This document shows, piece by piece, positions 12,818-60,577 of a stretch of DNA of 64,000 nucleotides. The position numbers and the translations under genes were made by a program. Origin of the DNA: Pseudovibrio exalbescens (GTDB lineage: Bacteria; Pseudomonadota; Alphaproteobacteria; Rhizobiales; Stappiaceae); the NCBI RefSeq assembly GCF_028737195.1, contig NZ_JAQZAJ010000006.1, positions 248,001 to 312,000 on the forward strand, read 5' to 3'. Positions within the stretch are counted from its first letter, which is position 1, and the number at the start of each line of letters is the position of its first letter. The notes under the pieces were generated by a model. That model was not told the DNA's origin. It made no database searches and worked only from the letters and a program-made list of their open reading frames with translations.

Positions 12818-12833
12818 TGAGGTAGGCCAGAAA

Positions 12834-12918: not shown

Positions 12919-12924
12919 AAGAGC

Positions 12925-12954
12925 ATCCTACGACAATGTGGCGGCGCGAATCAA
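12925..12954 (-). promoter_or_regulatory. Promoter of the repABC ctRNA
   Basis: TTGATT and TAGGAT hexamers on the minus strand, 18 bp apart, upstream of the antisense RNA. The -35 box overlaps the left arm of a small hairpin (CAAGGGA 12952-12958 with TCCCTTG 12965-12971), which may belong to the repC mRNA leader. Confidence 0.6.
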
Positions 12955-13069
12955 GGGACGAATATCCCTTGAAAGGACTAAGTGCGCCTTTCAGCCGGTT
13001 TGATTCCCATTATCCCCACGGTTTATCCGTCAGGACGCGGTTGCATTTGCTTCCGTGAATGGATCTGTC

Positions 13070-14344
13070 ATGCGAACTCATGCAGTTGCTTCGTTTAGGA
13101 AGCTTACTCCCGGTATGTTGGCCTCTCAGCGGCTGGCTATGGCCAATGACATTGTTGAAACGACCAAGGCTGAGGTTGCGCTCGCGTTGAAGAAGTCGGC
13201 CCCTGCCCTCGGGATTGATGGAACGACCTACCATGTACTCGATATTCTCATTGGCCTGACCAAGGCAGATGACTGGAAGACTGACCGCCGGCCTCTCGTT
13301 GCGATCTCAAATGAGAAACTTGCGGAATATGTGTGCCGTTCCAAACGCACGGTTGTCAGATGCCTTAAGAAGCTCGTCGAGGCTGGCGTGCTTGCCTACC
13401 GGGACAGTTCCACAGGCCGGCGGTTTATCTATCGCAATGACACCACTGGCGAAATTGATCGGGGCTATGGCCTGGACTTCTCTCCTGCACGCCAACGTGT
13501 TGCGGAACTCAAGAGAATTGCGGCAGAGTTCGCTGCCCGGTTGAAAGCGGAGCAAGAGGCCAAGCGCAGTGTAAACCGGTTGTCCCGTGCTATTCAGGAC
13601 ATGCTGGATCTGGGCGTTGGTGATGCCAATCTGGCGATAGAGTTTGCCCAGTCCTTGGCAGAAGCCATGTCTCGGCCATGCCATGTCCTGGAGAGGGCAG
13701 AGATCCTGCAAAGCCTTTATGAGCAGCTCTTGGAGGCATTGGCAACAGATGGAAGTGATGGGATTTTTAAAGAAATGCCACCCGAGGGTGACATCACTGT
13801 CACTCCATATAATAATACAAACCCTCAAAACTCTATAGATAGTAAAAAAAGGACATCGGCTCACGCCGATGACATCGAAACCAACGCCTCCGGCGATAAT
13901 GCTCCTGAAAAGGAGCAAATCAGCAAACTGCGTGCCGCCTCACGATCTCCGCTAAAAGAAGGATCCGCTGTTGGCTTTACTGGCGTTAGCCAACAGGGAG
14001 AGCTGAACCCGCAACTCTCAGCAGTCTCCATTGGCTTGGTTGAGTTGGCAACGGCGAACCTTCAAGAAACCCTTGGGGTGAAGTTTACAAGCTGGGCAAG
14101 GCTGGTTGCGTCGGCCGAGCAAACATGTCTGCTAGTTGGCTTGTCTTTAAGTGGCTGGAACTCCGCCGTCTCTAGGGTTGGCGACAAGATGGCGGCGACA
14201 GTTCTTGCGGTGACTGCCGAGAAAGCCTTGCGCGATCCGGAAGCGATTTCCAGCCCTGGTGGCTATTTCCGCGCCTGTATTGACCGAGCAATTGATGGAA
14301 AGTTGCTGCTGCATAAATCGCTTTACGGACTGGCTGAGAGCTAA
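13070..14344 (+). CDS. repC: Plasmid replication initiator RepC
   Basis: 424 residues from the ATG at 13070. A GTG five codons upstream (13055) is also in frame, but the family usually begins near MxTHxxxxxFRxxTxGML, as here. The N-terminal RP-C winged-helix DNA-binding domain (about residues 10-170) includes VAISNEKLAEYVCRSKRTVVRCLKKLVEAGVLAYRDSSTGRRF. A variable linker and the C-terminal RP-C domain (WNSAVSRVGDKMAATVLAVTAEKAL) follow. RepC starts replication at an origin inside its own gene, matching the AT-rich stretch at 13796-13856. Expression should be limited by the antisense RNA upstream. Confidence 0.95.
   Translation: MRTHAVASFRKLTPGMLASQRLAMANDIVETTKAEVALALKKSAPALGIDGTTYHVLDILIGLTKADDWKTDRRPLVAISNEKLAEYVCRSKRTVVRCLKKLVEAGVLAYRDSSTGRRFIYRNDTTGEIDRGYGLDFSPARQRVAELKRIAAEFAARLKAEQEAKRSVNRLSRAIQDMLDLGVGDANLAIEFAQSLAEAMSRPCHVLERAEILQSLYEQLLEALATDGSDGIFKEMPPEGDITVTPYNNTNPQNSIDSKKRTSAHADDIETNASGDNAPEKEQISKLRAASRSPLKEGSAVGFTGVSQQGELNPQLSAVSIGLVELATANLQETLGVKFTSWARLVASAEQTCLLVGLSLSGWNSAVSRVGDKMAATVLAVTAEKALRDPEAISSPGGYFRACIDRAIDGKLLLHKSLYGLAES
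13796..13856. other. AT-rich segment inside repC, probable origin of replication
   Basis: About one third G+C over 60 bp by my count (20 of 60 in 13801-13860), clearly lower than the flanking coding sequence. It lies between the two RepC domains in the poorly conserved linker, where the oriV of repABC plasmids has been mapped. The exact limits are not defined by sequence alone. Confidence 0.6.
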
Positions 14345-25870: not shown

Positions 25871-26440
25871 ATGATTACAGATGATATCGAGGTCATCGAT
25901 TACTCCAACAGTGTGGAGCACCTTCTGGCGCCGTTTGCAGGCGTCTTGGGTCAGGACTATGACGGCTATCGGGGCCACATTTATCGCAACCTGACGTATA
26001 CGCTGCACTTTCTGGATGGTGATGAGACATTTCGACCAGAGATTGAAGCGGCGCTGGTTTATCATCACATCGGTCTGTGGACTCATGCGACCTTACACTA
26101 CGTCAAACCGTCTTTGGAGCGATTTGGCCGTGATAGTCGGCGGTTTGGCTGGGATCTGGACAACATTCTGGTCTGGGACATCATCCAGTGGCATCATAAG
26201 TTGTTCTGGTACCGCGGTCCAAATGCTGACGTAATCAACGCCGTACGAAAGGCCGACTGGGTGGATGCATCGGGTGGGCGCATTCGCAAGGGGCTGTCTT
26301 CTGAGCAGGTGCGTTTGGTGCGGGATGCAATCCCGGAGGCTGGGTTTCAAAAGGCACTGCGACGTATGTCGCGCGAACTCAAGGGCGGAAACTGGGCCAA
26401 TGACCTCATTTGGATGTGCTTGAAGGTTCAGAAGCTCTGA
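25871..26440 (+). CDS. HD-domain-like protein with altered metal dyad
   Basis: 189 residues. It aligns by eye with small HD-superfamily hydrolases: YRGHIYRNLTYTLHFL supplies the first conserved His. The usual (F)HDIG(I)WT motif reads YHHIGLWTHATLHYVKPS, so the dyad Asp is His and the later Asp-Tyr is His-Tyr. WHHKLFWYRG and RKADWVDASGG match the remaining parts. Metal binding may be changed or lost. It overlaps the 3' end of hipA tail-to-tail by 13 bp. Function not assignable. Confidence 0.75.
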   Translation: MITDDIEVIDYSNSVEHLLAPFAGVLGQDYDGYRGHIYRNLTYTLHFLDGDETFRPEIEAALVYHHIGLWTHATLHYVKPSLERFGRDSRRFGWDLDNILVWDIIQWHHKLFWYRGPNADVINAVRKADWVDASGGRIRKGLSSEQVRLVRDAIPEAGFQKALRRMSRELKGGNWANDLIWMCLKVQKL

Positions 26441-27756
26441 GTATTGGAAGAAGCCAATAGAACCGCCAGTCGAGATTTCATGTTGCGTGAAATGGATTCA
26501 TGAATTTCGCCGGGAAACTGACGGGGCAAAGTAGTTTCCTGATTTGTGAGGGCTGCCTCCAGGGCATTTGCAACCTGCTCAAGCGCTTCCTCGAACAAGG
26601 CTTCGGGCAGGGTGGCGGCCCTCAGCGTTTCTTTGAAGTGACGCGCGTTGATACGGTCGAAACGATAGTGGTTTGAACGCCCTAGCGAGAGCGCAAGCTT
26701 CAGCTGTTTGCGCTCGATCATGCGAGCATCAACGCTCGGCTGGGCGCTGAGCACGTCATAGATCGGGGTAAGGCGATATCCGCCTCCTGGGCTGAGGAAC
26801 ACACTGAAATTCTTGGCGTGTCCATCTGTTGCAGCCATGAGCCAGAACACAAGCTGGGCCTTGATGAGCGTGAGCTGATCTTCCCGTGGCGTGTCGCTGC
26901 CCTTCAGAAGCCGCAGCATTTGGACAAGGCCCGGTCCGCCCTCTGCTTGATACTTGAGAGTGGGTGGAACAGATAGCGCCTGACAGAAGTCTTCCTGAGG
27001 CAAGCGTAGAAGGCGGCCATCTTTGGTGTGGCGACGGTCGAACCGCTCAATGACCAACGCGGTTCGCTCGCCAAAATGCTGTATTTCTACAGCTGGCACA
27101 TGGAAACCGAGCTTTTCAAGCAGCGTCAGGCAGTAATATTCGTTTTCAACGCTGGTGGTGAGATCAATGCCGCCGGGCAGATGCCCGATTGCTGGCTTGA
27201 GAATGTGGGTGGTCGGTGTTGTGCCATGAGGCTGTTTCCAAACGCCGTCATGACGCAATAGCGCCGTCTTTTCTTGTGCCCCGGCCACTGAAATGCGGAA
27301 GTCCTGTTCGGTGGAAACGCCCAGTGGTACGCGGGCCAACCCATTGAGAAGACGTTCAATTTGCTCCTCCGATAGGGCCGAGCCATTGATGCGCGTCGTA
27401 TCTGAGGGGGGCAGGTCTGTGTCCGGCCAAAACTGTAGGGCTCCCACGCAATCCCGGCCGATCTGGGTCAGCAAACTGTACGCATCGGTGCCGCGCGCGC
27501 CCACACGCTCGGCCACTTGTCGGCGAAGGAGTTCAGAATCTGGAAGCAAGTTCTCAAAGACCGCCGTGACCACTTCGCCCGTGTAGGCGTCAGGCCGCAG
27601 CGGAAGGGACAAAGAGATGGCGAAACGGTGGGGCCAGTCCAACCATTCAGCATCGTAAGTGAATGAAACAGAACCGCTTTTTGCTTTGTAGAGCGTTCCA
27701 ACCATTCGGTTGTTCAAGAGCACTTTCAAGGGCTTATAGGCAGGTTTGCGGCCCAT
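26428..27756 (-). CDS. hipA: HipA-family serine/threonine kinase toxin
   Basis: 442 residues, typical for HipA. The N-terminal subdomain (couple_hipA, residues 8-110) begins KPLKVLLNNRMVGTL. The kinase part contains the catalytic loop ATDGHAKNFSVFLSPGGGYRLTPIYDVLSA, with Asp and Asn for catalysis and the Asp of YDV for metal. In E. coli HipA phosphorylates glutamyl-tRNA synthetase and slows growth; substrates of relatives vary. It follows hipB with stop and start sharing one base (TAATG). Confidence 0.93.
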   Translation of the reverse strand: MGRKPAYKPLKVLLNNRMVGTLYKAKSGSVSFTYDAEWLDWPHRFAISLSLPLRPDAYTGEVVTAVFENLLPDSELLRRQVAERVGARGTDAYSLLTQIGRDCVGALQFWPDTDLPPSDTTRINGSALSEEQIERLLNGLARVPLGVSTEQDFRISVAGAQEKTALLRHDGVWKQPHGTTPTTHILKPAIGHLPGGIDLTTSVENEYYCLTLLEKLGFHVPAVEIQHFGERTALVIERFDRRHTKDGRLLRLPQEDFCQALSVPPTLKYQAEGGPGLVQMLRLLKGSDTPREDQLTLIKAQLVFWLMAATDGHAKNFSVFLSPGGGYRLTPIYDVLSAQPSVDARMIERKQLKLALSLGRSNHYRFDRINARHFKETLRAATLPEALFEEALEQVANALEAALTNQETTLPRQFPGEIHESISRNMKSRLAVLLASSNTQSF

Positions 27757-35371: not shown

Positions 35372-35867
35372 GGCTGTGGTCATGCGAATGATGGTGACTG
35401 TGGCCGTGACTGTGTGAATGAGAGCTGCTGCGGTTGGACTTGTGATAAGCGCCGCGGACCGGTGAGAACGCTCCTTCAATTTCGGTGATGGTCGCGCCGA
35501 GGCCTTCGAGCATTTCCTTGATGACGTGATCCTTTAGGATCACGATGCGGTCCAGCTCGATCTGCGAGGGCAGGTGCCGGTTGCCCAGATGCCAGCATAG
35601 TTGGGCATGGTGCAGGGCGTCGCGGGCTTTGACTTCGTAAAGCGGCTCCACAGCGGCCTTTATCACGACGAACTTGCCGCCTTCTGTTTCAATGGCGTCG
35701 CCCTCATCAAACGAGACGGCATCAGCTACTTCGAACAGGACTTTCACTCCTGTATCGGTGGTGAGCACCTTGCGGCGCAAATGGCGTTCGTCATGGGAGA
35801 GTGTGACGGTGCCCAGAACTTCGCCAGAATACGCTCCGGCGCGTTTGTATGTATGTGCAGTAAACAT
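35364..35867 (-). CDS. ureE: Urease accessory nickel metallochaperone UreE
   Basis: 167 residues. N-terminal peptide-binding and C-terminal metal domains (WHLGNRHLPSQIELDRIVILKDHVIKEML with the conserved His). The last 20 or so residues are nearly all His, Ser and Asp, a nickel-storage tail. The start shares one base with the ureC stop (TGATG). Confidence 0.96.
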   Translation of the reverse strand: MFTAHTYKRAGAYSGEVLGTVTLSHDERHLRRKVLTTDTGVKVLFEVADAVSFDEGDAIETEGGKFVVIKAAVEPLYEVKARDALHHAQLCWHLGNRHLPSQIELDRIVILKDHVIKEMLEGLGATITEIEGAFSPVRGAYHKSNRSSSHSHSHGHSHHHSHDHSHD

Positions 35868-37579
35868 CAGAACAAGAAATACCTTTGCGCCATGGGAACC
35901 ACTTCTGCCGGTTCGCAGGTGAGAAGCTCACCGTTTGCGCGAACCTCATAGGTTTCTGGGTCTACCTCCACGTGCGGCGTGGCGCTGTTGTGGATCATGG
36001 AGGCTTTTGAAATGCCCGACCGGGTGTTGTCGACCGCGAGCATCTGTTTGGCGGTGCCCAGTTTTTCCGGGAGACCCGCATCCAGAGCCGCCTTGCTGAC
36101 AAAGGTGACAGAGGAGTTTGTCAGGCTCTTGCCATAGGCTCCGAACATGGGCCGGTAGTGAACGGGCTGCGGTGTTGGAATGGAGGCATTTGGGTCGCCC
36201 ATCATGGCCATGGCGATGGTGCCGCCGGTAAGTACCATGTCTGGCTTCACGCCGAAGAAGGCCGGTGTCCAGAGCACCAGGTCGGCGCGTTTGTCCACTT
36301 CGATGGAACCGATCTCCCGTGACAGCCCGTGGGCGATGGCGGGGTTGATGGTGTACTTGGCGATGTAACGCTTGACGCGAACGTTGTCGTTGTCGCCGGT
36401 TTCTTCCGGAAGAGCGCCGCGCTGGCGCTTCATCTTGTCGGCGGTCTGCCAGGTGCGGATCAGCACTTCGCCCACGCGGCCCATGGCCTGACTGTCCGAG
36501 GCGATGATGGAGAACGCGCCCATGTCGTGCAGAATGTCCTCAGCGGCGATGGTTTCCTTGCGGATGCGGCTTTCGGCAAAGGCCACGTCCTCGGGAATGT
36601 TGGTGTCCAGATGGTGGCAGACCATGAGCATGTCCAGATGCTCGGCAATGGTGTTGCGGGTGTAAGGACGTGTCGGGTTGGTGGAGGATGGCAGGACGTT
36701 TGAAAGGCCGCAAACCTTGATGATGTCCGGCGCATGCCCCCCGCCTGCACCTTCCGTATGGAAGGCATGAATGGTGCGGCCCTTCAGGGCATCGATGGTG
36801 TTCTCGACGAAGCCGCTTTCATTCAGCGTGTCCGTATGGATCATCACCTGAACGTCGCAGCTGTCTGCCACGCTGAGGCAGGTATCGATGGCCGATGGGG
36901 TGGTTCCCCAATCCTCATGAAGCTTCAGCGCGCAGGCCCCGCCAAGCACCATTTCCTCCAGCGCCTTGGGGTGGGAAGCGTTGCCCTTGCCCGCAAACGC
37001 AAGGTTCATGGGAAAGGCGTCTGCCGCCTCAATCATCCGGGCGATGTGCCACGGGCCGGGCGTGCAGGTGGTTGCCAAGGTGCCATGGGCCGGACCCGTG
37101 CCGCCGCCAAGCATGGTGGTGACGCCGGAGGTCAGGGCCTCCTCGATCTGCTGGGGGCAGATGTAGTGAATGTGCGCGTCCATGCCGCCGGCTGTCAGGA
37201 TCTTTCCTTCTCCGGCAATGGCCTCCGTTCCCGGACCAATGATGATGTCGACGCCGCTCTGCATGTCCGGATTGCCTGCCTTGCCAATGGCGGCAATGCG
37301 GCCGTCTTTGAGGCCGATGTCGGCTTTGTAGATGCCGGAATGGTCCACCACCAAGGCGTTGGTGATGACCGTATCGACGGCTCCTTCGGCGCGGGACAGC
37401 TGGCTCTGGCCCATGCCATCGCGGATGACCTTGCCGCCGCCGAACTTCACCTCCTCACCGTAAGTGGTGAAATCCTTCTCCACCTCGATGAAAAGCTCCG
37501 TATCAGCAAGGCGGACCTTGTCGCCCACGGTGGGGCCGAACATGTCTGCGTAGGCGGCGCGAGAAATGGAAGTTGCCAT
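35867..37579 (-). CDS. ureC: Urease alpha subunit UreC
   Basis: 570 residues from ATG 37579, 9 nt after GGAGG; a GTG two codons upstream is unlikely. Metal-site residues: His136 and His138 ([12 protein letters not shown]), carbamylated Lys219 with His221 ([16 protein letters not shown]), and flap Cys in MVCHHLDTN, where catalytic His follows. Hydrolyses urea to ammonia and carbamate in the cytosol with two nickel ions. Full length with no missing residue seen. Confidence 0.98.
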
Positions 37580-37581
37580 GG

Positions 37582-37887
37582 TCACGCCCCTCCGCTTGGT
37601 TTGATCTGGAAGCCCTGAATGGTCTGCGTGCCCCCAACGGGGATCAAGTGAACTTCGCGGGTCTGCCCAGGCTCAAAGCGCACGGCAGTGCCGGGGGCAA
37701 TGTCGAGGCGCTTTCCATGTGCGGCCTTTCGGTCAAAGGTGAGGGCGGCATTTACCTCGGCAAAGTGATAATGACTGCCCACCTGAACCGGACGGTCGCC
37801 AGTGTTGGCCACCTTGAGCGTGATGCTGTCCACGCCCTCGTTGAGGGTGATGTCGCCACTGGCGACAATAACTTCTCCGGGGATCAT
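37582..37887 (-). CDS. ureB: Urease beta subunit UreB
   Basis: 101 residues, the standard length. [18 protein letters not shown] and [14 protein letters not shown] with [20 protein letters not shown] are diagnostic. Two bp separate its stop from the ureC start. Confidence 0.97.
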
Positions 37888-37896
37888 GAAGGCTCC

Positions 37897-38475
37897 TTAT
37901 GCGGTAAACGCGAGCGCAAGACCGCCAGCAGCGAACAGGCCACCAACGACCCGAAGGATCGTCTTGCCAGCCTTGCCAGTTGCCACTGTGCCAAAGCCAA
38001 GCCCGGCAAGAAGCAAACAGGAGGTGGCAACGGAAAAGCCGAGGGCGTAGCCAACAAGGCTTCCGCCCGGCGCTTCAAGACCGTGAGCTGCCCCGTGAAA
38101 CAGAGCAAACAGGCCAACGATGATGCAACCAACGGCGCATGGCAGCTTCAGAGCCAATGCAATCAACAGACCGGTTATAACAACGGACGCAAGGATTCCC
38201 GGCTCGATGAGCGGGATGGAAACACCCGCAGCTGCGAGCCCAAAGCCAAGCAGCATGGCAGCGACAAACGAGACAGGCCACCAGTAGATGCGGTTTCCGC
38301 CGACAAGAGCGGCCCAGATGCCCACCGCGATCATGGCGAGCATGTGGTCCAGCCCCCCGAGCGGGTGCAGGAGGCCGGAAACAAAGCTGGATGTGTTTTC
38401 ATGGCCCGCATGGGCCGCAGCGGTCGTGACGCCAGCGAGAGTGGCTATTGCGGTGAGTGCTATAAGCTTTTTCAT
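37897..38475 (-). CDS. ureJ: HupE/UreJ-family nickel permease
   Basis: 192 residues. A signal-like N-terminus (ending AAAHAGHENTS), the HPLGGLDHMLAM motif (HPxxGxDH) and FALFHGAAHGLEAPGG are diagnostic of HupE/UreJ. Several hydrophobic segments. It imports nickel for the urease centre and lies inside the operon, 9 bp before ureB. Confidence 0.93.
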   Translation of the reverse strand: MKKLIALTAIATLAGVTTAAAHAGHENTSSFVSGLLHPLGGLDHMLAMIAVGIWAALVGGNRIYWWPVSFVAAMLLGFGLAAAGVSIPLIEPGILASVVITGLLIALALKLPCAVGCIIVGLFALFHGAAHGLEAPGGSLVGYALGFSVATSCLLLAGLGFGTVATGKAGKTILRVVGGLFAAGGLALAFTA

Positions 38476-38559
38476 CGGGTTCCCCTCGGGATGGACAGGT
38501 ATGAACGGGTTATTTTGGATGCCCGCGTTCCTGCTAATGTTGTTCTTGAGTTCGATCGA

Positions 38560-38802
38560 TCAGGCGGCGCAGCCCTCAGGCTTTAGAGTTCGTCGGGTTT
38601 GGGCTGGAAACTTGCCAAGCAAGGCGGTTGGACGCGCAGGGCGAGGGACAAGCTCACCGCCGCAGTTGGGGCAGGTGCCCTTCAGGACACTGTCGTTACA
38701 GTGCGCACAAAATGTGCACTCAAAAGTGCAGATGAAGGCGCCTTGTTGGTCGGCGGGCAAATCGCGATCGCAGCATTCACAACCGGGTCTCATTTCCAGC
38801 AT
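38560..38802 (-). CDS. DUF1272 small cysteine-rich protein
   Basis: 80 residues. Four CxxC-type pairs: PGCECCDRDLP, FECTFCAHCND and GTCPNCGGELV, giving a likely zinc-binding fold; the match to DUF1272 is clear to me. A perfect AGGAGG lies 8 nt before the ATG. It sits between ureA and ureJ in the urease operon. Its role there is unknown; a metal-handling role is only a guess. Confidence 0.85.
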   Translation of the reverse strand: MLEMRPGCECCDRDLPADQQGAFICTFECTFCAHCNDSVLKGTCPNCGGELVPRPARPTALLGKFPAQTRRTLKPEGCAA

Positions 38803-38839
38803 GGCACTTTCCTCCTTTTGCGCCGTGTTGTGTCACCAT

Positions 38840-39142
38840 TCACCGAATGGGCTCGTGGACGGTGACCAGTTTGACGCCATCTGGAAAAGTGGCTTCCACT
38901 TGAATGTCATGGATCATCTCTGGAATGCCTTCCATTACCTGATCACGGGTGATCACATGGGCACCGGCTTCCATAAGATCGGCTACGCTGCGGCCGTCGC
39001 GGGCACCTTCAACAACATAGTCTGTCACAATGGCAACAGCTTCTGGATGGTTGAGCTTGACCCCGCGCTCCAGGCGAGCGCGGGCAACCATGGCGGCCAT
39101 GGCGACAAGCAGTTTGTCCTTTTCCCGAGGGGTGAGGTTCAT
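38840..39142 (-). CDS. ureA: Urease gamma subunit UreA
   Basis: 100 residues, exact family length. Opens [39 protein letters not shown] and includes [12 protein letters not shown], highly conserved. AGGAGT ribosome site 4 nt before the ATG. It follows ureD by 9 bp. Confidence 0.97.
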
Positions 39143-39151
39143 TGGGACTCC

Positions 39152-40021
39152 TTACAAACTCCAAAGCTTGGGCAATGCGCGCTCGGGGCGCAGGCCCTGC
39201 AAAAACGGGATCAGCTTCTGGCGCAGATCAAACCCTGTGGCGGCAGTGAGCCGCGCTGTGATCTTGCCGTTGAAAGTGCTGATGCCAAAGGAAAGGTCTG
39301 GTGTTTTGGGCCGCAGCGCGTCACACCGCGCCTCAAGCACCTCTTGATCTTCAGGCCCTAAATAAACAACGGAGGCAAACGCCCGTTGGCTGGCTAGAGT
39401 GCTGTTGCCTGCCGCGATTTTTGTAACCTCGCCAGAGAACAGAAGGTCGTCCGCATGAACAAGCTTGCCACCACGATGAATGCGCCAGCGGTCGCTGAAA
39501 TGGGCCATTTCCACCTGCTCACCCATGGCGTCTCGCCCTAAAATGACGGCCTCCACCGCAAGAAAACGGGCATCCTCTGCCATGTGAACATGCATCTGGC
39601 GGGAGAGGGAAGCGCGGTCAAACAGGATGGTTTCCTGCGGGAGCCAATGTAGTTCCGATCCCTTGTCCAAAGAGAGGAACGAGGTGACATTGGCTGTCCC
39701 CTCACTGGCCTTGTAGATTTTCTCACAGGCCTGAGTTGTCAGAACGGAGCGGGTGTTGACCCCGGCTTCTACCGACCAATCGAGTACGTCGCCGCCTGTC
39801 AAACCGCCGCTGGTGTTGATGAGCACAGCCTCGGCCATGTCGCTATAGACTTTGGGCAGGCGCACCTTGGCGGCTCCCTCTTGATAGAGGGTTTCAAGGC
39901 GTGTGGCGCTTGTTGTTGGATCTTCAGATGGTGCAGGTTTAAACGCAATACGACCCACACCGGCAGTGCGCTGCAGCCCCGCAACGGGGGTCGGCTTTTC
40001 TGCCAGGTTATGTGCGGTCAT
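39152..40021 (-). CDS. ureD: Urease accessory protein UreD
   Basis: 289 residues from ATG 40021; the frame is open further upstream but the conserved sequence starts near residue 20 (VGRIAFKP). Typical motifs: LINTSGGLTGGD, TTQACEKIYKA, LHWLPQETILFD. It recruits UreFG to apo-urease. First gene of the operon, with a sigma-54 promoter about 80 bp upstream. Confidence 0.95.
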   Translation of the reverse strand: MTAHNLAEKPTPVAGLQRTAGVGRIAFKPAPSEDPTTSATRLETLYQEGAAKVRLPKVYSDMAEAVLINTSGGLTGGDVLDWSVEAGVNTRSVLTTQACEKIYKASEGTANVTSFLSLDKGSELHWLPQETILFDRASLSRQMHVHMAEDARFLAVEAVILGRDAMGEQVEMAHFSDRWRIHRGGKLVHADDLLFSGEVTKIAAGNSTLASQRAFASVVYLGPEDQEVLEARCDALRPKTPDLSFGISTFNGKITARLTAATGFDLRQKLIPFLQGLRPERALPKLWSL

Positions 40022-40479
40022 GGTTATTATCCAATCTTTTGATCTAAAGGTCTCCCTTGGCCGAACACAGCCAAAACGTGCCCAATCTGCGTTCGTCCTC
40101 GGTGGGTTTAGCAAGCTACGTGCCAATACTAGAATGCGGAGTTGGTAGCCCTTCAACCCACTGAATCTACGAGGGATTCAGGGTTGTGAGTATGGCCTGA
40201 TGCACGCGGCCTGTTTTGCGGGATGGTAAGTCTGTGCCTATAAATTAAGCAATTGCGACAAGGGTGGGTTTCTCGGGCATGAAGTGAGGCGAAACATCGC
40301 CGTCCCGAAAGGGTTTGGCTGAGAGACTACAAGCCGCGGCGTTCTGCGTTCTTTTGCGTATTGGGGGTTGGCGGTGCCGCTTTTTTGCGTGAGGCGCAAA
40401 ACTGATTTGTCTGCGCTCCTCTTAATCAAGCGATCTGCGGGGAGTAGGGTGCGCTCAAATCGCTAGAGGATTAAAGAAA
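40022..40479. other. Divergent promoter region between ureD and the OYE genes
   Basis: About 460 bp without a gene. It holds the ureD sigma-54 promoter (40110-40126), a bulged stem (CTGAATC 40161-40167 with GATTCAG 40175-40181), and an inverted repeat TTTTGCG (40383-40389) with CGCAAAA (40395-40401) about 80 bp before the first OYE gene. Confidence 0.6.
40110..40126 (-). promoter_or_regulatory. Sigma-54 (RpoN) promoter of the urease operon
   Basis: Minus-strand TTGGCACGTAGCTTGCT. It fits the -24/-12 consensus YTGGCACGrNNNTTGCW at all fixed positions, with GG and GC 10 bp apart. Transcription would start near 40099, giving a leader of about 78 nt before ureD. Implies nitrogen control through NtrC or a related activator. 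Confidence 0.82.
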
Positions 40480-53788: not shown

Positions 53789-54580
53789 CTAGCGAACGAT
53801 AACGAGTTTCACGCCGTGCTGGTTGAGCTGCATGTTGATGTCCGCTGGCGGTGTGGCGTCCGTGAACAGCGCGGTGGCATCCTTGATGTGGCCCACTTCC
53901 ACCGCAGCGGTGGTGCTGAACTTGGTGGAGTCAGCCGCGATGAACACGTTGCGTGCTGTCCTCATCATGCTTTGAACCACTACGACCTCATTGAAATCAT
54001 AGTCCAAAAGGGTTCCGTCGGTATCAATGGAACCACAGCTGGTGATCAGGTAGTCCACGCGGAAATGGTTGACAAACTCCAGCGCGGTTGAGCCAACGAT
54101 GCCGCCATTGGTGCTGCGTAGCTTGCCGCCCGGCACCATGACGTTGAAGTCTGCCTTCTGGTAGAGAACATTGGCAACGCGCAGGCTGTTTGTGATCACG
54201 CGCAAGCCTTGTTTCTTCAAGAGGTGCTTCGCGATGATCTCGGTTGTGGTGCCAATTGAAATGAAAACGGAAGAATTGTCCGGGATCTGCTCAGCAATGG
54301 CCGCGCCAATCGCTTCCTTTTCTTCCGTTTCCGAAACCTGACGGACAGCGTAATCCAGATTCACCACGCTGGAGCTGCGGCCTGCGCCACCGTGATGGCG
54401 GACAACAAGCTTTTGCTCGCTCAGCTTCTTGATGTCACGGCGAATGGTCTGGGCTGACACATCAAGCAGCTCGGCGAGCTCCTCAACGCTGACATATCCC
54501 TTCTCATTGACCTCTTTGATCAGCTTTTCGTGGCGAAGGTTCCCTACAATCACGGCATCCGGCATCTGTCTTTGTTCCAA
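53789..54580 (-). CDS. csqR: DeoR-family repressor, CsqR/YihW-like (sulfoquinovose regulator)
   Basis: 263 residues. Helix-turn-helix LAELLDVSAQTIRRDIKKLSEQKLVVRHHGGAGR near residues 35-70, then the sugar-isomerase-like DeoR C-terminal domain (ISIGTTTEIIAKHLL, VMVPGGKLRSTNGGIVG, SCGSIDTDGTLLDYDFNE). From memory it is close to E. coli YihW (CsqR) along its length, including RHHGGAGRxSSVVN. An in-frame ATG five codons in (54565) is possible. Same direction as the kinase gene, 61 bp apart. Confidence 0.85.
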   Translation of the reverse strand: MEQRQMPDAVIVGNLRHEKLIKEVNEKGYVSVEELAELLDVSAQTIRRDIKKLSEQKLVVRHHGGAGRSSSVVNLDYAVRQVSETEEKEAIGAAIAEQIPDNSSVFISIGTTTEIIAKHLLKKQGLRVITNSLRVANVLYQKADFNVMVPGGKLRSTNGGIVGSTALEFVNHFRVDYLITSCGSIDTDGTLLDYDFNEVVVVQSMMRTARNVFIAADSTKFSTTAAVEVGHIKDATALFTDATPPADINMQLNQHGVKLVIVR

Positions 54581-54641
54581 GTCTGAACAGGGTGCCCAAG
54601 TGCCAGATCAATTGCAATGGCGGGAAGCTCCCTGTGATTTC

Positions 54642-55535
54642 TTAGGTGTTGGCCTTGATGAACGCCTCAGCGGTGCTCCGGTCCGGCACGCCTTCACGGC
54701 CGCCAAGCTTGGTGCACTTCAAAGCGGCAACGGCGCTGGAGAAAGTGACAGCAGCACGTGCATCCATCTTGTCCGCGACAGCCAGAGCAAAGGCACCATG
54801 GAACACATCGCCAGCACCGGTGGTGTCGACAACATCAACCTTGAAGCCCGGTTGATGGCAAAGCTCGCCATTTTCCAGCCAGTAGCAGCCTTTTGAGCCA
54901 ACAGTTACATAGACTTTACCATTGGTTTTCGTTTGAGCAATGCGCAATCCCTCTAAAGGATCATCAACCTGTGAGAATTTCGCCAATCCGGGTTCGGAAA
55001 ATGCAACATGATCGGCCAATTCGACCAGTTCGGTGATGTCTTCCGGTGTAATGTCAGCGTCCAAAACACTTGGAATCCCAAGGGACTTAGCTTGCTCTAG
55101 TGCATACTTGGCGCCCGGTATCCAGCGCACGTCACACAACACTGATTGGAATTGTTCGAAACTGATCTTTTTGAGCCACTCAGGATCACGACTCAGTTGG
55201 GCGGATTGGTAATTGATGATCATCCGCTCACCGGCATCGTCCACCAAAATTGCGGAGAACGAGGAGGCTGCATTCTCGAATTGCTTTACGTGAGAATGGC
55301 CAACACCGTAGCTGGTGAACTCCCGAAGCATCGTCTGCGCAACGTCATCGCTTCCTACGCGGCCAATGAACTCAACCGGTGTACCAAGTTTGCTGATTGC
55401 GACCGCCGCAGTAGCTGCAGGCCCGCCGCCAACTTCAAAATAGTCTTTCGCAACAAACTTGCCGCCTGTTGTTGGTAGTTGAGAGACTCGGAACACTCGG
55501 TCGAGAACGGTGATCCCCACGCATGCGATCGTCAT
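54642..55535 (-). CDS. yihV: PfkB-family kinase, probable 6-deoxy-6-sulfofructose kinase (YihV-like)
   Basis: 297 residues from ATG 55535 (AAGGTAAG upstream). PfkB motifs: GGGPAATAAVA and DTTGAGDVFHGAFA. It matches the remembered E. coli YihV over its whole length (SELVEL/EPGLAKF region, KCTKLGGREGVPD). Residues recalled as YihV sulfonate contacts, Lys27, Asn109 and Arg138, are present as Lys26 (GGKFVAK), Asn108 (MIINYQ) and Arg137 (CDVRW). This supports a sulfofructose kinase over a ribo- or fructokinase. It would make sulfofructose 1-phosphate with ATP. Divergent from yihU. Confidence 0.85.
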   Translation of the reverse strand: MTIACVGITVLDRVFRVSQLPTTGGKFVAKDYFEVGGGPAATAAVAISKLGTPVEFIGRVGSDDVAQTMLREFTSYGVGHSHVKQFENAASSFSAILVDDAGERMIINYQSAQLSRDPEWLKKISFEQFQSVLCDVRWIPGAKYALEQAKSLGIPSVLDADITPEDITELVELADHVAFSEPGLAKFSQVDDPLEGLRIAQTKTNGKVYVTVGSKGCYWLENGELCHQPGFKVDVVDTTGAGDVFHGAFALAVADKMDARAAVTFSSAVAALKCTKLGGREGVPDRSTAEAFIKANT

Positions 55536-55608
55536 TGACTTACCTTTTCTGACTTTGGGAGCGTCGTTTTGCCGAAAATACATACAAATACTGACGGATA
55601 AACACTCA

Positions 55609-55711
55609 TTTGATGAAAAAATACCATCAAAATCGCCAAAAAACAATCAGAATGTGTTGAATTATGCCTGTGATCGGGTCTAATGTTGGATAACGAACAT
55701 AAACGATCACA
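55609..55711. promoter_or_regulatory. Divergent control region of the sulfoglycolysis genes
   Basis: Two inverted repeats in the 190-bp gap. TTTGATG (55609-55615) with CATCAAA (55625-55631), spacer 9, and TGTGATCG (55669-55676) with CGATCACA (55704-55711), spacer 27. The second abuts the yihU ribosome site. GATCA-centred palindromes also occur before the aldolase. Candidate CsqR sites. Confidence 0.55.
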
Positions 55712-55725
55712 AGCGAGGACTTGGT

Positions 55726-56619
55726 ATGGCGACTGTTGGTTTTGTTGGTCTGGGTCAGATGGGTGCCGCAATGGCTGCCAACCTGATCAAGGGAGGCCAC
55801 GCCCTGAAGGTTTTTGACATCAATAAAGAAGCCGTGGCTGCTCTTGGTGCACAGGGCGCGGATGCATGTGCATCCCCTGCAGAGACCGCAGAAGGCGCAG
55901 ACTTCGTGATTACCATGCTGCCTAACGGGGCGCTTGTGCGTGACGTGCTGCTCGGTGCAGAGGGTGTTGTGTCCCGTCTTGCCAAGGATGCGCTGGTTAT
56001 TGACATGTCGACCATTCATCCGCTGGAAACCGATGCCCTCATTGCTGACCTTGCAAAGCTGGGCGTCGAAATGATGGAAGCGCCGGTGGGCCGCACCTCC
56101 GACCATGCAATCGCCGGTACGCTGCTGATCCTCGCAGGTGGCACGAAGGAGCAGATCGCCAAGGCACAGCCTCTGTTTGATCTGATGGGTTCTGACACTG
56201 TAGATGCGGGCGGCCCCGGCAAAGGCATTCGCGTAAAAATCATCAACAATTACATGAGTATCGCGCTCAACGCGCTGTCAGCTGAGGCAATTGCTCTGGC
56301 AGAAAAGATTGGCCTCGACTTCGATACGGCCATGTCTGTGATGAGCGGAACACCGGCTGGCAAAGGCCATTTCACCACCACATGGCCAAACAAGGTTCTG
56401 GCTGGCAACCTCGATCCTGCGTTCATGATCGATCTGGCGCACAAGGATCTTGGTATCGCAATGGATCTGGCAAACCAGGTTGGCGTTCCAATGCCAATGG
56501 GTGCTGCTTCTCGTGAGCTTTACAACATCAGCCGTTCTGCTGGTCGCGGTCGTCAGGACTGGACAGCCGTTCTGGAACAGCTGCGTCAGCTGTCTGGCTT
56601 GGAAACAAAAGCCAAGTAA
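55726..56619 (+). CDS. yihU: 3-Sulfolactaldehyde reductase, YihU-like
   Basis: 297 residues, beta-hydroxyacid dehydrogenase family. NAD motif [16 protein letters not shown]. It tracks remembered E. coli YihU closely, including FITMLPNG-type [27 protein letters not shown] and [20 protein letters not shown]. Arg123, Thr124-Ser125, Lys171, Asn174 and Asn175 sit at the same positions; the GRTS motif is the reported sulfonate signature. Reduces sulfolactaldehyde to dihydroxypropanesulfonate with NADH. First gene of a run with the mutarotase and the exporter. Confidence 0.87.
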
Positions 56620-56640
56620 GGCGCACAGGGAGCGAACACC

Positions 56641-57696
56641 ATGGAAAAGACCATCGTGAAATTCGGTGAGGTTGACGGCAAGGTTGTCGATCTCATCACT
56701 CTGTCCAACAAAAACGGCATGAAGGTCAGCGTTACAAACTACGGCTGTATCGTAACCTCCATCGAGGTGCCTGGCCGTGATGGCAAGGCGGCAGATGTGG
56801 TTCTCGGTTATGAGTCCCTTGAAAAGTACCTCGCTGGCCATCCGTTCTTCGGTGCAATTGCGGGTCGCTTCGCCAACCGCGTCCAAGACGGCAAGTTCAG
56901 CCTGGACGACTACACCTACCAGCTGGAAACCAACGAACCGCCAACTGTTCAGCACCTGCACGGCGGCTCCAAGGGTTTCGACAAATACGTTTGGGGGTAT
57001 GATCTGGAAGAAACCGAGGACGCGATCCTTGTTCACTTCCATCGTATCTCAGTGGATGGCGAATCCGGCTATCCCGGCACGCTGGATGTGACCCACACCA
57101 TTGGCTTGGATGAAGAGAATCAGCTGCACTACAACTTCCGTGCGCACACCGACAAGCCAACGGTGATCAACCTCGTCAACCACAGCTACTACAACCTCGC
57201 CGGTCATGACAGCGGCAGCGTGGCGGGCCACCAGCTGACACTGGGTGCAGACTTCTACACCCCGGTTGCTGAGAATATGATCCCGACAGGGGAAATTCTG
57301 AAGCTAGCTGACACCGGTCTGGACTTCCGCACTGCGGCCAAGATTGGCGACAACATGGAAAAGGTTGAAGGCGGTGCGTTCGACTTCAACTTCATTCTGA
57401 ACGGCGCGAAGAAAGAAGGCGAATACACCTTCGCGGCTGATTTGTATGATCCAGAATCTGGTCGCTTCATGACCGTTCTGACCACCCAGCCAGCAATCCA
57501 GTTCTACAATGGCTTCAAGCTTTCCAACAAACCTTGGTTTGGCCGCAACGGTTACAAGTACGAAGCATTCGGCGGCCTGTGCCTTGAAACACAAGGCTTC
57601 CCGGATAGCCCGAACAAGGCGCACTTCCCATCACCACGTCTGAATCCAGGCGAGATCTACGAGCACAAGACCATTCACCGGTTTGGTACTCGCTGA
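56641..57696 (+). CDS. yihR: Aldose 1-epimerase, possible sulfoquinovose mutarotase
   Basis: 351 residues, GalM fold. GAIAGRFANRVQDGKF, QHLHGGSKGFDKYVW (catalytic His), VNHSYYNLAGHDSG and C-terminal GLCLETQGFPDSPNKAHFPSP (catalytic Glu) are the galactose-mutarotase motifs. The length matches GalM more than short YihR. Placement with yihU suggests sulfoquinovose anomer interconversion, but a general sugar mutarotase is possible. 21 bp after yihU, with GGGAG ribosome site. Confidence 0.82.
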   Translation: MEKTIVKFGEVDGKVVDLITLSNKNGMKVSVTNYGCIVTSIEVPGRDGKAADVVLGYESLEKYLAGHPFFGAIAGRFANRVQDGKFSLDDYTYQLETNEPPTVQHLHGGSKGFDKYVWGYDLEETEDAILVHFHRISVDGESGYPGTLDVTHTIGLDEENQLHYNFRAHTDKPTVINLVNHSYYNLAGHDSGSVAGHQLTLGADFYTPVAENMIPTGEILKLADTGLDFRTAAKIGDNMEKVEGGAFDFNFILNGAKKEGEYTFAADLYDPESGRFMTVLTTQPAIQFYNGFKLSNKPWFGRNGYKYEAFGGLCLETQGFPDSPNKAHFPSPRLNPGEIYEHKTIHRFGTR

Positions 57697-57759
57697 TCAT
57701 TCAGGCAACAAGAAAGCGGCTCCGTAAGTCGGGCGGGGCCGCTGTTTTGAGAACCCATC

Positions 57760-58503
57760 ATGTATATCGAAATACTCATCGTCTCTGCGATCATCGCATT
57801 GGGCAGCTTTACGCAGGGCTTGACCGGTTTTGGTCTTGCGCTGGTCAGCGTGCCGCTTTTGTCGATGGCAATTGACGTAAAAGCAGCTGTGCCCATTGCC
57901 GGTATCTTCGGCTGGCTCGTGACCTTTCCGTTGGTCTGGAAAATGCGCGAGCATGTGCAATGGAAGACCGGTTTGATCCTTTTTGTCGGTTCTCTTCCAG
58001 GCTCGTTTCTGGGGGCTGACCTTTTGAAGCGCATGCCAGCCGAAGCGATCTTGATCACGATGGGTGTCGTGCTGATTGCTTCCAGCCTGTATTCCCTGTT
58101 TTCCAAGGCGCCACTTTTCAAGAAAACCTCGCCGCCAATCACCCTTGGTACGGGCTTTTTCTCCGGTGCTCTTGGTGCCAGCGTTGGGGAGCCGGGCCCG
58201 CCGGTCATTGCCTACACATCCATGCAGCCTTGGACCGCTGATCAGACCAAGTCCACTTTGGTGTTCTTCTTCATGCTTCAGATGGTTGGCGCGATTGCGG
58301 GCTTTTGGAGCAAGGGGCTGATCGACGCTTATGTGATGGAGCGCGTCGCTTATGCGATGCCAGCTTTCATCGTGGGCATGACCGTGGGCATGTTCGCATA
58401 CCACCTCTTGCACAAATACAAGATCAACTATCACGGCATCATTCATAGCTTGCTGCTGGTGGTGGGCGCGATGTTGATCATCAAGAATCTTCATCTCTGG
58501 TAG
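57760..58503 (+). CDS. TauE/SafE-family (TSUP) sulfonate/sulfite exporter
   Basis: 247 residues with about seven to eight hydrophobic segments. ALGSFTQGLTGFGLALVSVPLLSM opens, the second repeat is TGFFSGALGASVGEPGPPVIAYTSMQPW. TSUP members move sulfite, sulfoacetate or other organosulfonates. Here it would export the pathway end product, dihydroxypropanesulfonate or sulfolactate. Third gene after yihU-yihR. Confidence 0.87.
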   Translation: MYIEILIVSAIIALGSFTQGLTGFGLALVSVPLLSMAIDVKAAVPIAGIFGWLVTFPLVWKMREHVQWKTGLILFVGSLPGSFLGADLLKRMPAEAILITMGVVLIASSLYSLFSKAPLFKKTSPPITLGTGFFSGALGASVGEPGPPVIAYTSMQPWTADQTKSTLVFFFMLQMVGAIAGFWSKGLIDAYVMERVAYAMPAFIVGMTVGMFAYHLLHKYKINYHGIIHSLLLVVGAMLIIKNLHLW

Positions 58504-58544
58504 AAATACGGAGATTAATGTGTTTTTGTGTCATTAAATGCTCA

Positions 58545-58577
58545 TATATGATCATATAGGCTTTCGATAATGATCAT
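58545..58577. promoter_or_regulatory. GATCA-centred palindromes upstream of the aldolase gene
   Basis: A 14-bp palindrome TATATGATCATATA near 58545-58558 is followed by ATGATCAT near 58570-58577. They share the TGATCA core with the divergent yih region. The aldolase thus probably has its own promoter under the same regulator. Confidence 0.45.
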
Positions 58578-58703
58578 AATGCGGTAGTGTTGAACGCAAC
58601 AACACAAGAAACAGATCGGGGTGTCTCAACCCAAAATGAACGATGGTGGCGGGCACCCCCCACTCTATGGAAGTTCATTAGGAGCCCAGTTCGAGGAAAC
58701 AAC

Positions 58704-59570
58704 ATGGCTTACGTATCCGGTAAAGAAATGATCCAGCGCGCTTGGGAGAATGGTTATTCCATTGGCGCGTTCAGTGCACACAACGCTGAGACAATCCGCG
58801 CTATCCTGAAGGGTGCTCAAGAAGAACAGGCACCAATCATGATCCAGGTTGGTCAGAAGGTGATTTCTGTCATGGGTCTGCAGGAAATGAAGGACATGAT
58901 TGATACCTTCATGCGCGACATTACTGCGCCGGTTTGTATCCACCTCGATCACAGCCGTCAGTTTGAGCAGACCATGGCAGCCGCACGCGCGGGCTTCCAT
59001 TCTCTCATGTTCGATGGTTCCGGCTACGCATTTGAAGACAACGTTCGCATTACCAAGGCTGTTGCAGATGTCGCGCACGCTCTAGGCGTTGGCTGTGAAG
59101 GCGAGATCGGTAAGATCGGCGGTACCGAAGATGACATCACCGTTGATGAAGCAGACGCGATGATCACCACCGTTGAGGAAGCTCAGGAATTTGCCAGCCG
59201 CACGACCGTTGACTATCTGGCGATTTCTGTCGGTACCGCGCACGGCGTTTACAAGTCCGAGCCGAAGCTGGCTTTCGAGCGCATCAAAGAGATCAAAGAA
59301 ATCGTCAAGAAGCCTCTGGTTCTGCATGGCGGTTCTGGTGTGCCGGATGAGCAGGTTCAGGAAGCGATCCGTCTTGGCGTTGCCAAGGTGAATGTGGACA
59401 CCGAGCTGCGTCAGGCCTTCACTTACGGGGTTCAGGAAATCTGGGCGAAGGATCCGGAAGAATTCGTATTGGCGACTTCTATGGGCCGCGGTGAGGAAGT
59501 GATGAAGGAAAAAGTGATCGAAAAGATCCGTATCTTCGGCTCCTCCGGCAAAGCTGCTGACTTTAAATAA
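58704..59570 (+). CDS. Class II ketose-bisphosphate aldolase, probable sulfofructose-phosphate aldolase
   Basis: 288 residues from ATG 58704 (GAGGAAAC upstream). Class II metal ligands and catalytic residues: HLDHSRQFEQT (Asp and His), CEGEIGKIGG (Glu), GTAHGVYKSEP (His) and LHGGSGVPDEQVQEAI (His). It is in the FbaA/KbaY/GatY group. In this cluster it should split sulfofructose 1-phosphate into dihydroxyacetone phosphate and sulfolactaldehyde. E. coli uses the unrelated class I enzyme YihT, so this would be a non-homologous replacement. Ordinary fructose-bisphosphate aldolase is the alternative. Confidence 0.82.
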   Translation: MAYVSGKEMIQRAWENGYSIGAFSAHNAETIRAILKGAQEEQAPIMIQVGQKVISVMGLQEMKDMIDTFMRDITAPVCIHLDHSRQFEQTMAAARAGFHSLMFDGSGYAFEDNVRITKAVADVAHALGVGCEGEIGKIGGTEDDITVDEADAMITTVEEAQEFASRTTVDYLAISVGTAHGVYKSEPKLAFERIKEIKEIVKKPLVLHGGSGVPDEQVQEAIRLGVAKVNVDTELRQAFTYGVQEIWAKDPEEFVLATSMGRGEEVMKEKVIEKIRIFGSSGKAADFK

Positions 59571-59576
59571 GCTATT

Positions 59577-59613
59577 GAAAGGCCTCGGAAAAGTCCGGGG
59601 CCTTTCGCTTTTT
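59577..59613 (+). terminator. Intrinsic terminator after the aldolase
   Basis: GAAAGGCCTCGGA (59577-59589), loop AAAG, TCCGGGGCCTTTC (59594-59606), 13-bp stem with one T-G wobble, then TTTTT at 59609-59613. It separates the aldolase from tpiA, which therefore needs its own promoter. Confidence 0.87.
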
Positions 59614-59827
59614 CCTCCGGTTTGCAGGGGATAGACTTGAGTTGAAATGTCGCGGGTCTTCCCATTGGGTAGACTTTGTCTCGCGCCTGTTGATTCAACC
59701 GATTAAACTAAAGGCCTATGGTCGCTCCTCGCGTATACTGCGACCTGAACGATTCCCGGGTCTTGACCACATCCCGGGCAGAGTGCCCCGGTTCAACCGG
59801 ACCCTTGATTACAGGAGAGAATCCAGA

Positions 59828-60577
59828 ATGACTGTCCGTCCACTTGTTGCTGGTAACTGGAAGATGAACGGGGCTCTTGAGTCCTTTGAAGAGTTCTCCA
59901 AGATTGCAGCTGGCTACGATGCTGCGCTTGCCGAGAAAATCGACATGCTGGTGTGCCCTCCTGCTGTACTGCTTGCCAAGTTCGCTGAAGTTAAGAACAT
60001 CGCAGTTGGTGCGCAGAACTGCCACAGCGCCGTTTCTGGTGCGTTTACGGGTGATATCTCCGCTGAAATGGTTGCTGATGCTGGCGGTACATATGTACTC
60101 GTTGGACACTCCGAGCGCCGCGAAGGCTACGGCGAAACCGACGCGGATGTTGCTGCGAAGGCAGAGGCCGCATGGCGCGCAGGCATTATTGCCGTTGTTT
60201 GCATCGGTGAAAGCCTGGAGCAGCGTGAAGCTGGCGAAACAATCGCAGTTGTGACCGAGCAGGTTACCAAGAGCCTGCCAGACGCCTCCAACAGCGAAAA
60301 CACCGTTGTAGCCTATGAGCCAATCTGGGCGATCGGTACCGGCAAGACGCCAACCGCTGATGACGTTGCGGAAGTGCATGCAGCCCTGCGCAAGAGCCTT
60401 GAAGAGCGCTTTGGTGAAGATGGTTCCAAGATCCGCCTGCTTTATGGTGGTTCTGTGAAGCCTTCCAACGCCGCTGAACTGCTGGCACTGCCTAACGTCA
60501 ACGGCGCGCTGGTCGGTGGTGCTTCCTTGAAAGCTGCTGACTTCCTCGGCATTGCAGAAGTCTACAAGAACTTCTAA
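59828..60577 (+). CDS. tpiA: Triosephosphate isomerase
   Basis: 249 residues. Catalytic residues: Lys in AGNWKMNG, His in LVGHSERR, Glu in [13 protein letters not shown], and the phosphate-binding [11 protein letters not shown] and GALVGGASL loops. ATG 59828 follows AGGAGAG; an earlier open extension to 59642 is unlikely. Interconverts DHAP and glyceraldehyde 3-phosphate, so it can feed the aldolase's DHAP into glycolysis. It has a separate terminator-bounded transcript from the aldolase. Confidence 0.95.

Follow-up and report, generated by a model that had tools for sequence, protein, structure and literature searches.

We analyzed a 64,000-base stretch of a Pseudovibrio genome (hereafter the window; positions 248001-312000 of contig C23, which has 324,680 bases, in an assembly of 4.39 Mb and 26 contigs), in which seven open reading frames (ORFs) at 53789-60577 had been predicted to form a variant sulfoglycolytic Embden-Meyerhof-Parnas (sulfo-EMP) cluster. 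All seven lie at the predicted positions and strands and, together with a second block of genes farther along the same contig, very probably constitute a hybrid sulfo-EMP/sulfo-EMP2 cluster for the breakdown of sulfoquinovose, a sulfur-containing sugar of plants and algae. The cluster is of the hybrid type because it joins the kinase and reductase of sulfo-EMP with an aldolase and an isomerase of the sulfo-EMP2 type. At the level of sequence, the genes fall into the corresponding families or clades, the active-site residues of YihV, YihU, and YihQ are retained, and the two blocks co-occur across genomes.

In the proposed pathway, a tripartite ATP-independent periplasmic (TRAP) transporter would import sulfoquinovose or its glycerol glycoside, YihQ would free sulfoquinovose, a GalM-type mutarotase would open or equilibrate its ring, and an isomerase of the SqvD/SftI type would convert it to sulfofructose. 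The YihV kinase would phosphorylate sulfofructose at O1, SqiA would cleave sulfofructose-1-phosphate into dihydroxyacetone phosphate (DHAP) and sulfolactaldehyde, and YihU would convert the latter to dihydroxypropanesulfonate (DHPS), which a TauE-type permease would export. DHAP would enter glycolysis via the cell's only triose-phosphate isomerase (TPI), and a CsqR-like protein would repress the gene set until the sulfosugar is present. The substrates named here for the transporter, mutarotase, isomerase, and exporter are presumed ones, and the two blocks are presumably regulated jointly.

Enzymes of the first block

The genes for the CsqR-like repressor (53789..54580) and the kinase (54642..55535), both on the minus strand, diverge from those for the reductase (55726..56619), mutarotase (56641..57696), permease (57760..58503), and aldolase (58704..59570) on the plus strand, which are followed by tpiA (59828..60577, plus strand). 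The repressor, kinase, and reductase are 53%, 57%, and 65% identical to their E. coli counterparts, bearing out the CsqR-, YihV-, and YihU-like identities given to them in the original prediction. Best matches outside the YihU and YihV clades, looked for as a possible refutation, were not found.

The kinase is closest to E. coli sulfofructose kinase (7ag6; 364 bits, E 6e-108) in a phmmer comparison with the PDB, followed by the sugar kinase 2rbc (190 bits) and by ribokinases (at most 110 bits); the 57% identity to E. coli K-12 YihV extends over 297 aa. Its Lys26, Asn108, Arg137, and Asp243 align with Lys27, Asn109, Arg138, and Asp244 of E. coli YihV when numbered from the ATG at 55535. This ATG (minus strand) likely replaces the listed TTG at 55646 as the start, because the related loci L010, L011, L015, and L016 have stop codons within the TTG extension. 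The Lys, Asn, and Arg are kept in 23 of 23 kinases compared, in those of Photobacterium and E. coli, and in two kinases of genus g74, which we infer to be Cohaesibacter because the Cohaesibacter loci L012 and L031 look alike; at the Asn position 2rbc has, judged by eye, Pro. The three residues, like Arg123 in the GRTS motif of the reductase, are thus present where predicted and align with E. coli YihV and YihU, and we take them to be sulfonate contacts.

Clade membership, judged from sequence, rather than residue conservation is decisive for the kinase, which belongs with the YihV-clade sulfofructose kinases. In a tree of 24 kinases, a YihV group of 20 is split from four outside kinases with support of 91/93, on a branch that is not starred and in a tree that carries a long-branch warning and has 10 of its 21 inner branches well supported. 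The Pseudovibrio kinases adjoin the Vibrionaceae group (81/86 and 88/83) and do not form a single clade with those of Cohaesibacter (2 changes); the kinase was likely transferred between marine gamma- and alphaproteobacteria, in either direction.

The reductase scores 477 bits against the NCBIfam model for sulfolactaldehyde 3-reductase (NF012005), above the curated cut-off of 348, and its best PDB match is the sulfolactaldehyde reductase 6sm7 (phmmer, 420 bits, E 6e-125; next 176). With 65% identity to E. coli K-12 YihU, it can be counted among the sulfolactaldehyde reductases or dehydrogenases. The predicted aldolase is indeed present and can be specified as a class II enzyme that is closest to 8q57 and 8q58 (477 and 475 bits; next 229), entries titled as tagatose-1,6-bisphosphate and ketose-bisphosphate aldolase. 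We take these to be the structures that Sharma et al. 2023 determined for SqiA, and on that assumption the protein is a sulfofructose-1-phosphate aldolase of the SqiA type. It lies above the cut-off of the ketose-bisphosphate aldolase subfamily TIGR00167 (289 versus 216 bits); none of its NCBIfam matches is to a model for sulfofructose-phosphate aldolases, and its equivalog scores are under the cut-offs.

Taken by their generic Pfam families, these genes would also suit a pathway for an ordinary, non-sulfonated ketose, composed of a ribokinase-type kinase, a tagatose/fructose-bisphosphate aldolase, a mutarotase, a 3-hydroxyisobutyrate dehydrogenase-type reductase, and tpiA, and the restriction of the aldolase's NCBIfam matches to fructose/tagatose-bisphosphate types, with TIGR00167 passed, agrees with such a pathway. 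We find it scarcely credible, given that the margin of the best solved match over the next family is 174 bits (kinase), 243 bits (reductase), and 248 bits (aldolase, with 8q57 presumably SqiA), that the reductase exceeds an equivalog cut-off for sulfolactaldehyde reductase, and that YihQ is linked.

The predicted mutarotase is present, though not as a YihR-like protein: it is a GalM-type aldose 1-epimerase (Aldose_epim; PRK11055, 277 bits, cut-off 240), which a gapped global alignment shows to be only 27% identical to E. coli YihR, and we presume it to be the sulfoquinovose mutarotase. The permease is of the TauE/SafE family, as foreseen (PF01925, 93.9 bits), and is a candidate DHPS exporter; its gene is found in every one of the Pseudovibrio, Cohaesibacter, and g74 stretches that were compared (13, with two genomes represented twice). 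The repressor has DeoRC and HTH_DeoR domains, is 53% identical to E. coli CsqR (258 aa), and qualifies as CsqR-like as a DeoR-family protein encoded next to yihV and yihU; its gene keeps this place in related loci. It has Val where enterobacterial CsqR has Met25, a residue also reported missing from Vibrio CsqR (PMC10991401).

The second block

The span 53789-60577 contains no genes for an isomerase, a sulfoquinovosidase, or an importer and therefore could not by itself degrade sulfoquinovose. The original prediction did not mention these functions; its reading of the cluster as one for sulfoquinovose breakdown nonetheless appears sound at the level of clades. The same contig encodes candidates for all three functions at a distance of 9-15 kb downstream, past the window end, as five genes on the minus strand of a stretch designated L007 (C23:308001-324680; an L007 position plus 60000 gives the window-style number).

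The YihQ sulfoquinovosidase (L007:9343-11364) scores 996 bits against NF007746 (cut-off 553). E. coli YihQ matches C23:317373-319355, about 5.4 kb past the window end, with 55% identity (E 1e-264), and a second protein of glycoside hydrolase family 31 (GH31) elsewhere in the genome is 26% identical to it. The best PDB matches of the Pseudovibrio protein, itself a GH31 member, are the GH31 structure 8r56 (994 bits), 6pnr, and YihQ. All five residues tested are kept (R301, W304, D405, D472, and Y508 in E. coli numbering); D405 and D472 are presumably the catalytic Asp pair, and R301, W304, and Y508 presumably contact the sulfonate. The TRAP transporter consists of a DctP binding protein (L007:11492-12556), whose closest match among solved structures, judged by sequence, is a DctP that binds the sulfonate isethionate (137 bits, with sialic-acid binders at most 116 bits), a DctM subunit that passes TIGR00786 (L007:12624-13913), and a DctQ subunit (PF04290; L007:13946-14548).

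The gene for the putative isomerase (L007:14560-15906) encodes a SqvD/SftI-type protein of the fucose-isomerase family. A single-sequence search of the PDB finds no match for it at E 0.01, and its AlphaFold2 model (mean pLDDT, the predicted local distance difference test score, 89.5) resembles L-arabinose isomerases with a template modeling (TM) score of 0.83 and L-fucose isomerase 1fui with a TM of 0.78. An isomerase that is not YihS, has an arabinose/fucose isomerase fold, and falls under the SftI cut-off, combined with a mutarotase of the GalM type, could fit a pathway for another sulfosugar, such as sulfofucose or sulforhamnose, which would keep the logic of kinase, aldolase, and reductase and differ in the specificity of the isomerase. 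Such a pathway seems unlikely to us: YihQ is linked in every Pseudovibrio, Cohaesibacter, and g74 stretch that extends far enough (12, with one genome represented twice), the YihQ of the window genome is intact at the five tested residues, and 13 of 20 gammaproteobacterial loci pair relatives of the kinase, aldolase, reductase, TRAP transporter, and YihQ with YihS. Moreover, a hybrid-type Vibrio pathway is proven on sulfoquinovose (PMC13372026), and SqvD, the known sulfoquinovose isomerase of the sulfo-transaldolase (sulfo-TAL), sulfo-transketolase (sulfo-TK), and sulfo-EMP2 pathways, is of the FucI family and shares its superfamily with the Pseudovibrio isomerase (PMC9594981).

The best evidence for the putative role of the isomerase in sulfoquinovose breakdown is the reciprocal occurrence of this protein and YihS. 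All 14 Hyphomicrobiales genomes with a close kinase also have the isomerase, and none of them has a YihS orthologue (three have matches that share 24-25% identity and do not exceed 23.2 bits, and 11 have none at E 0.001). Conversely, YihS is present at 20 of 20 gammaproteobacterial loci (L005, L013-L030, and L032), with at least 87% identity to the Photobacterium query, and an isomerase orthologue is found in none of these 20 genomes or records, of which L005 was searched in its plasmid record only; seven have distant matches, the best at 26% identity.

A YihS-like protein encoded elsewhere was considered as the isomerase of the window genome and rejected, as the best match in the genome, an AGE-family protein on another contig (24-27% identity, 23-31 bits), is not an orthologue. 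From an ORF reading, its gene adjoins genes resembling those of a phosphotransferase system (PTS) and of Gfo/Idh proteins.

A second type of cluster was observed in other Hyphomicrobiales (L050:2054-8888, L051:2766-14221, and L052:7307-11654). Its kinase shares 38-40% identity with YihV, its aldolase is of the LacD/YihT type, and it also encodes a relative (44-46% identity) of the isomerase described above. None of the three loci has a YihU match; TRAP genes occur in L050 and L051, GalM occurs in L051 and L052, and a GH31 protein in L051 is close to alpha-xylosidases. The cluster may represent a parallel pathway for a sugar or a sulfosugar.

Distribution, integrity, and linkage

Relatives were compared only across the stretches fetched, of which L010 and L031 stop short of the isomerase. 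In the Pseudovibrio genome G408 (L104), eleven genes are contiguous within 13 kb in the order CsqR and YihV, then, divergently, YihU, GalM, TauE, SqiA, isomerase, DctQ, DctM, DctP, and YihQ, and the gene order is the same in P. denitrificans (L011, and L105 of genome G401). The two-block layout of the window recurs in G402, with 18 kb from kinase to isomerase, and in g74 the second block is inverted. In P. denitrificans (L105:10629-16242 and L011), the isomerase, GalM, and YihU genes are each in two pieces, which may reflect assembly errors or decay.

Among 397 genomes of the order, the kinase search gave 48 matches at E 1e-60 and 11 at E 1e-140 or better, the latter being the window genome and 10 genomes of g74; the isomerase is found in the identical 11 of 397 at E 1e-250 or better and in 30 of 397 at 1e-40. 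Seven of the 17 g74 genomes listed lack a close kinase. Within Pseudovibrio, 4 of 16 genomes have both kinase and isomerase, 11 have neither, and one (G406) has only a kinase of 44% identity. Kinase and isomerase genes are separated by 9.5-13 kb in the 10 g74 genomes and by 4.4-19 kb in the 4 Pseudovibrio genomes.

This patchiness within the genus, together with the urea-transport-like genes that divide the blocks in the window genome, could be taken to mean that the cluster is only a remnant, broken in regulation or function by the move that split it, in a lineage that has lost the use of sulfoquinovose. In genome G403, a CsqR-like gene (77% identity; L102:9397-10170) beside tpiA, with no other cluster gene on a 17-kb contig, looks like the leftover of a cluster since lost and fits such a course. 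For the window genome we regard it as very improbable: all eleven genes have uninterrupted reading frames and share 83-97% identity with their counterparts in P. exalbescens DSM 16456 (97% for the CsqR-like protein and 85% for the kinase), where the two-block layout is the same, so that neither block has been disrupted since these lineages diverged.

The hybrid set also occurs in an independent grouping, on plasmid pZZM402 of Zymomonas mobilis ZM4 (L111, NC_013785.1; 1-3457 and 32957-33853). The kinase, aldolase, mutarotase, and isomerase are 51%, 67%, 51%, and 58% identical to those of Pseudovibrio, their four genes are adjacent on the circle, and the kinase has the Lys, Asn, and Arg; the Pseudovibrio and Zymomonas isomerases more likely than not belong to one proteobacterial subfamily, well under the SftI cut-off. 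The plasmid annotation labels nothing as YihQ or YihU; farther on, the plasmid encodes major facilitator superfamily (MFS) and TonB-dependent transporters and an aldehyde dehydrogenase.

Joint control of the two blocks was approached through 16-base motifs, each learned from two of three promoter sets and scored on the remaining one. Among the isomerase promoters, those from six g74 genomes rank in the top 1.4% of background stretches and that from L104 in the top 0.9%; sqiA promoters range from 0.5 to 35% and yihV/yihU regions from 1.2 to 16%. The divergent promoter region of the window (55536..55725) contains TGATCGTTTATGTTCG (minus-strand reading), which, the motif test being weak, is a candidate operator only.

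Several observations weigh against the assignment of the two blocks to sulfoquinovose breakdown. The four kinases outside the YihV clade (38-44% identity) all have the Lys and Arg, and two of them the Asn; Lys26 and Arg137 are therefore not clade-specific, and the residue argument, although correct, is weak proof. Residue conservation was accordingly rejected as proof of substrate, two of these four kinases holding all three residues. The sole NCBIfam match of the isomerase, to NF048012 (SftI), reaches 301 bits against an equivalog cut-off of 700, and relatives of about 45% identity, with 267-268 bits on the same model, occur in the clusters with LacD/YihT-type aldolases, so that the family is not proven to be specific for sulfoquinovose. 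The genomes behind the 14-versus-20 pattern are related, and it may be the outcome of just one or two evolutionary events. Of the 20 gammaproteobacterial stretches, 13 contain YihQ while seven show none, and its linkage is thus not universal. The blocks themselves are 9-10 kb apart, with tpiA and seven other genes intervening, and the isomerase promoters of the window genome and G402 rank only within the best 18-19% of background stretches. The intervening genes are, besides tpiA, five urtABCDE-like genes (named as a urea ABC transporter from an ORF reading only) and genes for a peptidoglycan-binding-domain protein and a GH5 protein.

Although tpiA does follow the aldolase gene as predicted, it is not an extra belonging to the pathway. 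It is the sole TIM-family match in the whole genome, and it would serve the pathway simply as the cell's only TPI. Fifteen of 16 Pseudovibrio genomes, the window genome included, have one tpiA, and G406 has two. In 12 of the 16, the main tpiA lies next to secG- and pyrG-like genes and is 63-67% identical to that of the window; these neighbors were not found in G000, G400, G402, and G403 within the stretch compared (window 59828-60577; L006, L057, L061, L063, L102, and L103), and among these four the three other tpiA genes have diverged to 79-89% identity to the window's. The gene is on the repABC-bearing contig in the window and on a 4.6-Mb contig in G400, and was not found in the fetched stretches around the cluster in g74, Cohaesibacter, P. 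denitrificans, or G408. In a tree of 43 TpiA sequences, the 16 Pseudovibrio rows stand on one side of a branch (88/84) and the 27 outside rows on the other. A pathway-specific, perhaps acquired tpiA was therefore rejected; since the Pseudovibrio TpiA proteins group together, relocation and divergence of the native gene fit better than acquisition. The tpiA start is likely the ATG at 59828 and that of the aldolase the ATG at 58704, both internal to the listed ORFs.

The genus fits the predicted marine-type alphaproteobacterium, and repABC-like genes (ParA, RepB, and RP-C by Pfam) are found, as anticipated, on the contig of the cluster, at window positions 10488-14344. The same contig has urease genes (35867-40156) and the urea-transporter-like operon and is perhaps a chromid. 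A HipA-like kinase gene (HipA_C and Couple_hipA; 26428-27756) is possibly half of a toxin-antitoxin pair.

Relation to known sulfoglycolytic systems

Hybrid sulfo-EMP clusters carrying SqvD and SqiA have been described for a Yersiniaceae bacterium (PMC9594981) and for Hafnia paralvei and Serratia fonticola (PMC10991401), and sulfo-EMP2 genes near csqR have been mentioned for Alphaproteobacteria (PMC10991401). According to a 2026 review, which lists sulfo-EMP for gammaproteobacteria and actinobacteria, hybrid combinations are found across Proteobacteria and Actinobacteria (PMC12890257). Since combinations of SqvD, YihV, SqiA, and YihU are thus published for Enterobacterales, the Pseudovibrio cluster joins a known type. 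It belongs to Hyphomicrobiales, and its TRAP, TauE, and GalM genes and its two-block layout are probable further differences from the Enterobacterales loci. The literature searched, which included few subscription journals, did not pair sulfoquinovose with Pseudovibrio or Cohaesibacter.

The E. coli K-12 yih cluster is represented in Pseudovibrio by relatives of CsqR, YihV, YihU, and YihQ at 53-65% identity. It differs in its class I aldolase, YihS, YihR, and the transporters YihO and YihP, in place of which Pseudovibrio has a class II aldolase, an SqvD-type isomerase, a GalM-type mutarotase, and TRAP and TauE proteins. The sulfo-EMP2 pathway of Firmicutes (SqvD, SqiK, and SqiA), for its part, shares the aldolase and isomerase families; its kinase SqiK is of the PfkA family, whereas that of Pseudovibrio is YihV, of the PfkB family (PF00294), which sets the cluster apart from sulfo-EMP2 proper.

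The strongest external support is experimental and comes from a marine Vibrio. V. mediterranei AbY-1905 grows on sulfoquinovose with stoichiometric release of DHPS, sulfoquinovose induces a ten-gene cluster that includes an SqiA homologue, and without its isomerase gene the strain loses sulfoquinovose degradation (PMC13372026); the words transporter and TRAP are absent from the main text of that report. In another strain of the species (L015), we find ten genes, for CsqR, YihV, YihU, GalM, YihS, SqiA, DctQ, DctM, DctP, and YihQ, which are presumably the ten induced in AbY-1905. V. mediterranei thus resembles Pseudovibrio in combining sulfo-EMP enzymes with an SqiA aldolase and in its product, DHPS, which is predicted here. 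Gene content and order in L015 match the Pseudovibrio set apart from the isomerase and TauE, with nine relatives plus YihS.

Pseudovibrio species are often associated with sponges, corals, and algae. On balance, we lean toward a broader reading in which marine sulfoglycolysis with a dedicated TRAP importer would be common to Vibrionaceae, Pseudovibrio, and related Hyphomicrobiales, with a proteobacterial subfamily of metal-dependent isomerases replacing YihS within a gene set that is otherwise orthologous. The cluster places Pseudovibrio and Cohaesibacter among the likely DHPS producers and provides a testable TRAP importer candidate for a sulfosugar. Because the cluster equals that of the marine Vibrio save for one enzymatic step, YihS in V. 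mediterranei L015 and an SqvD/SftI-type enzyme in Pseudovibrio, comparing the two would amount to a clean natural experiment on a single difference, an isomerase drawn from non-homologous families.

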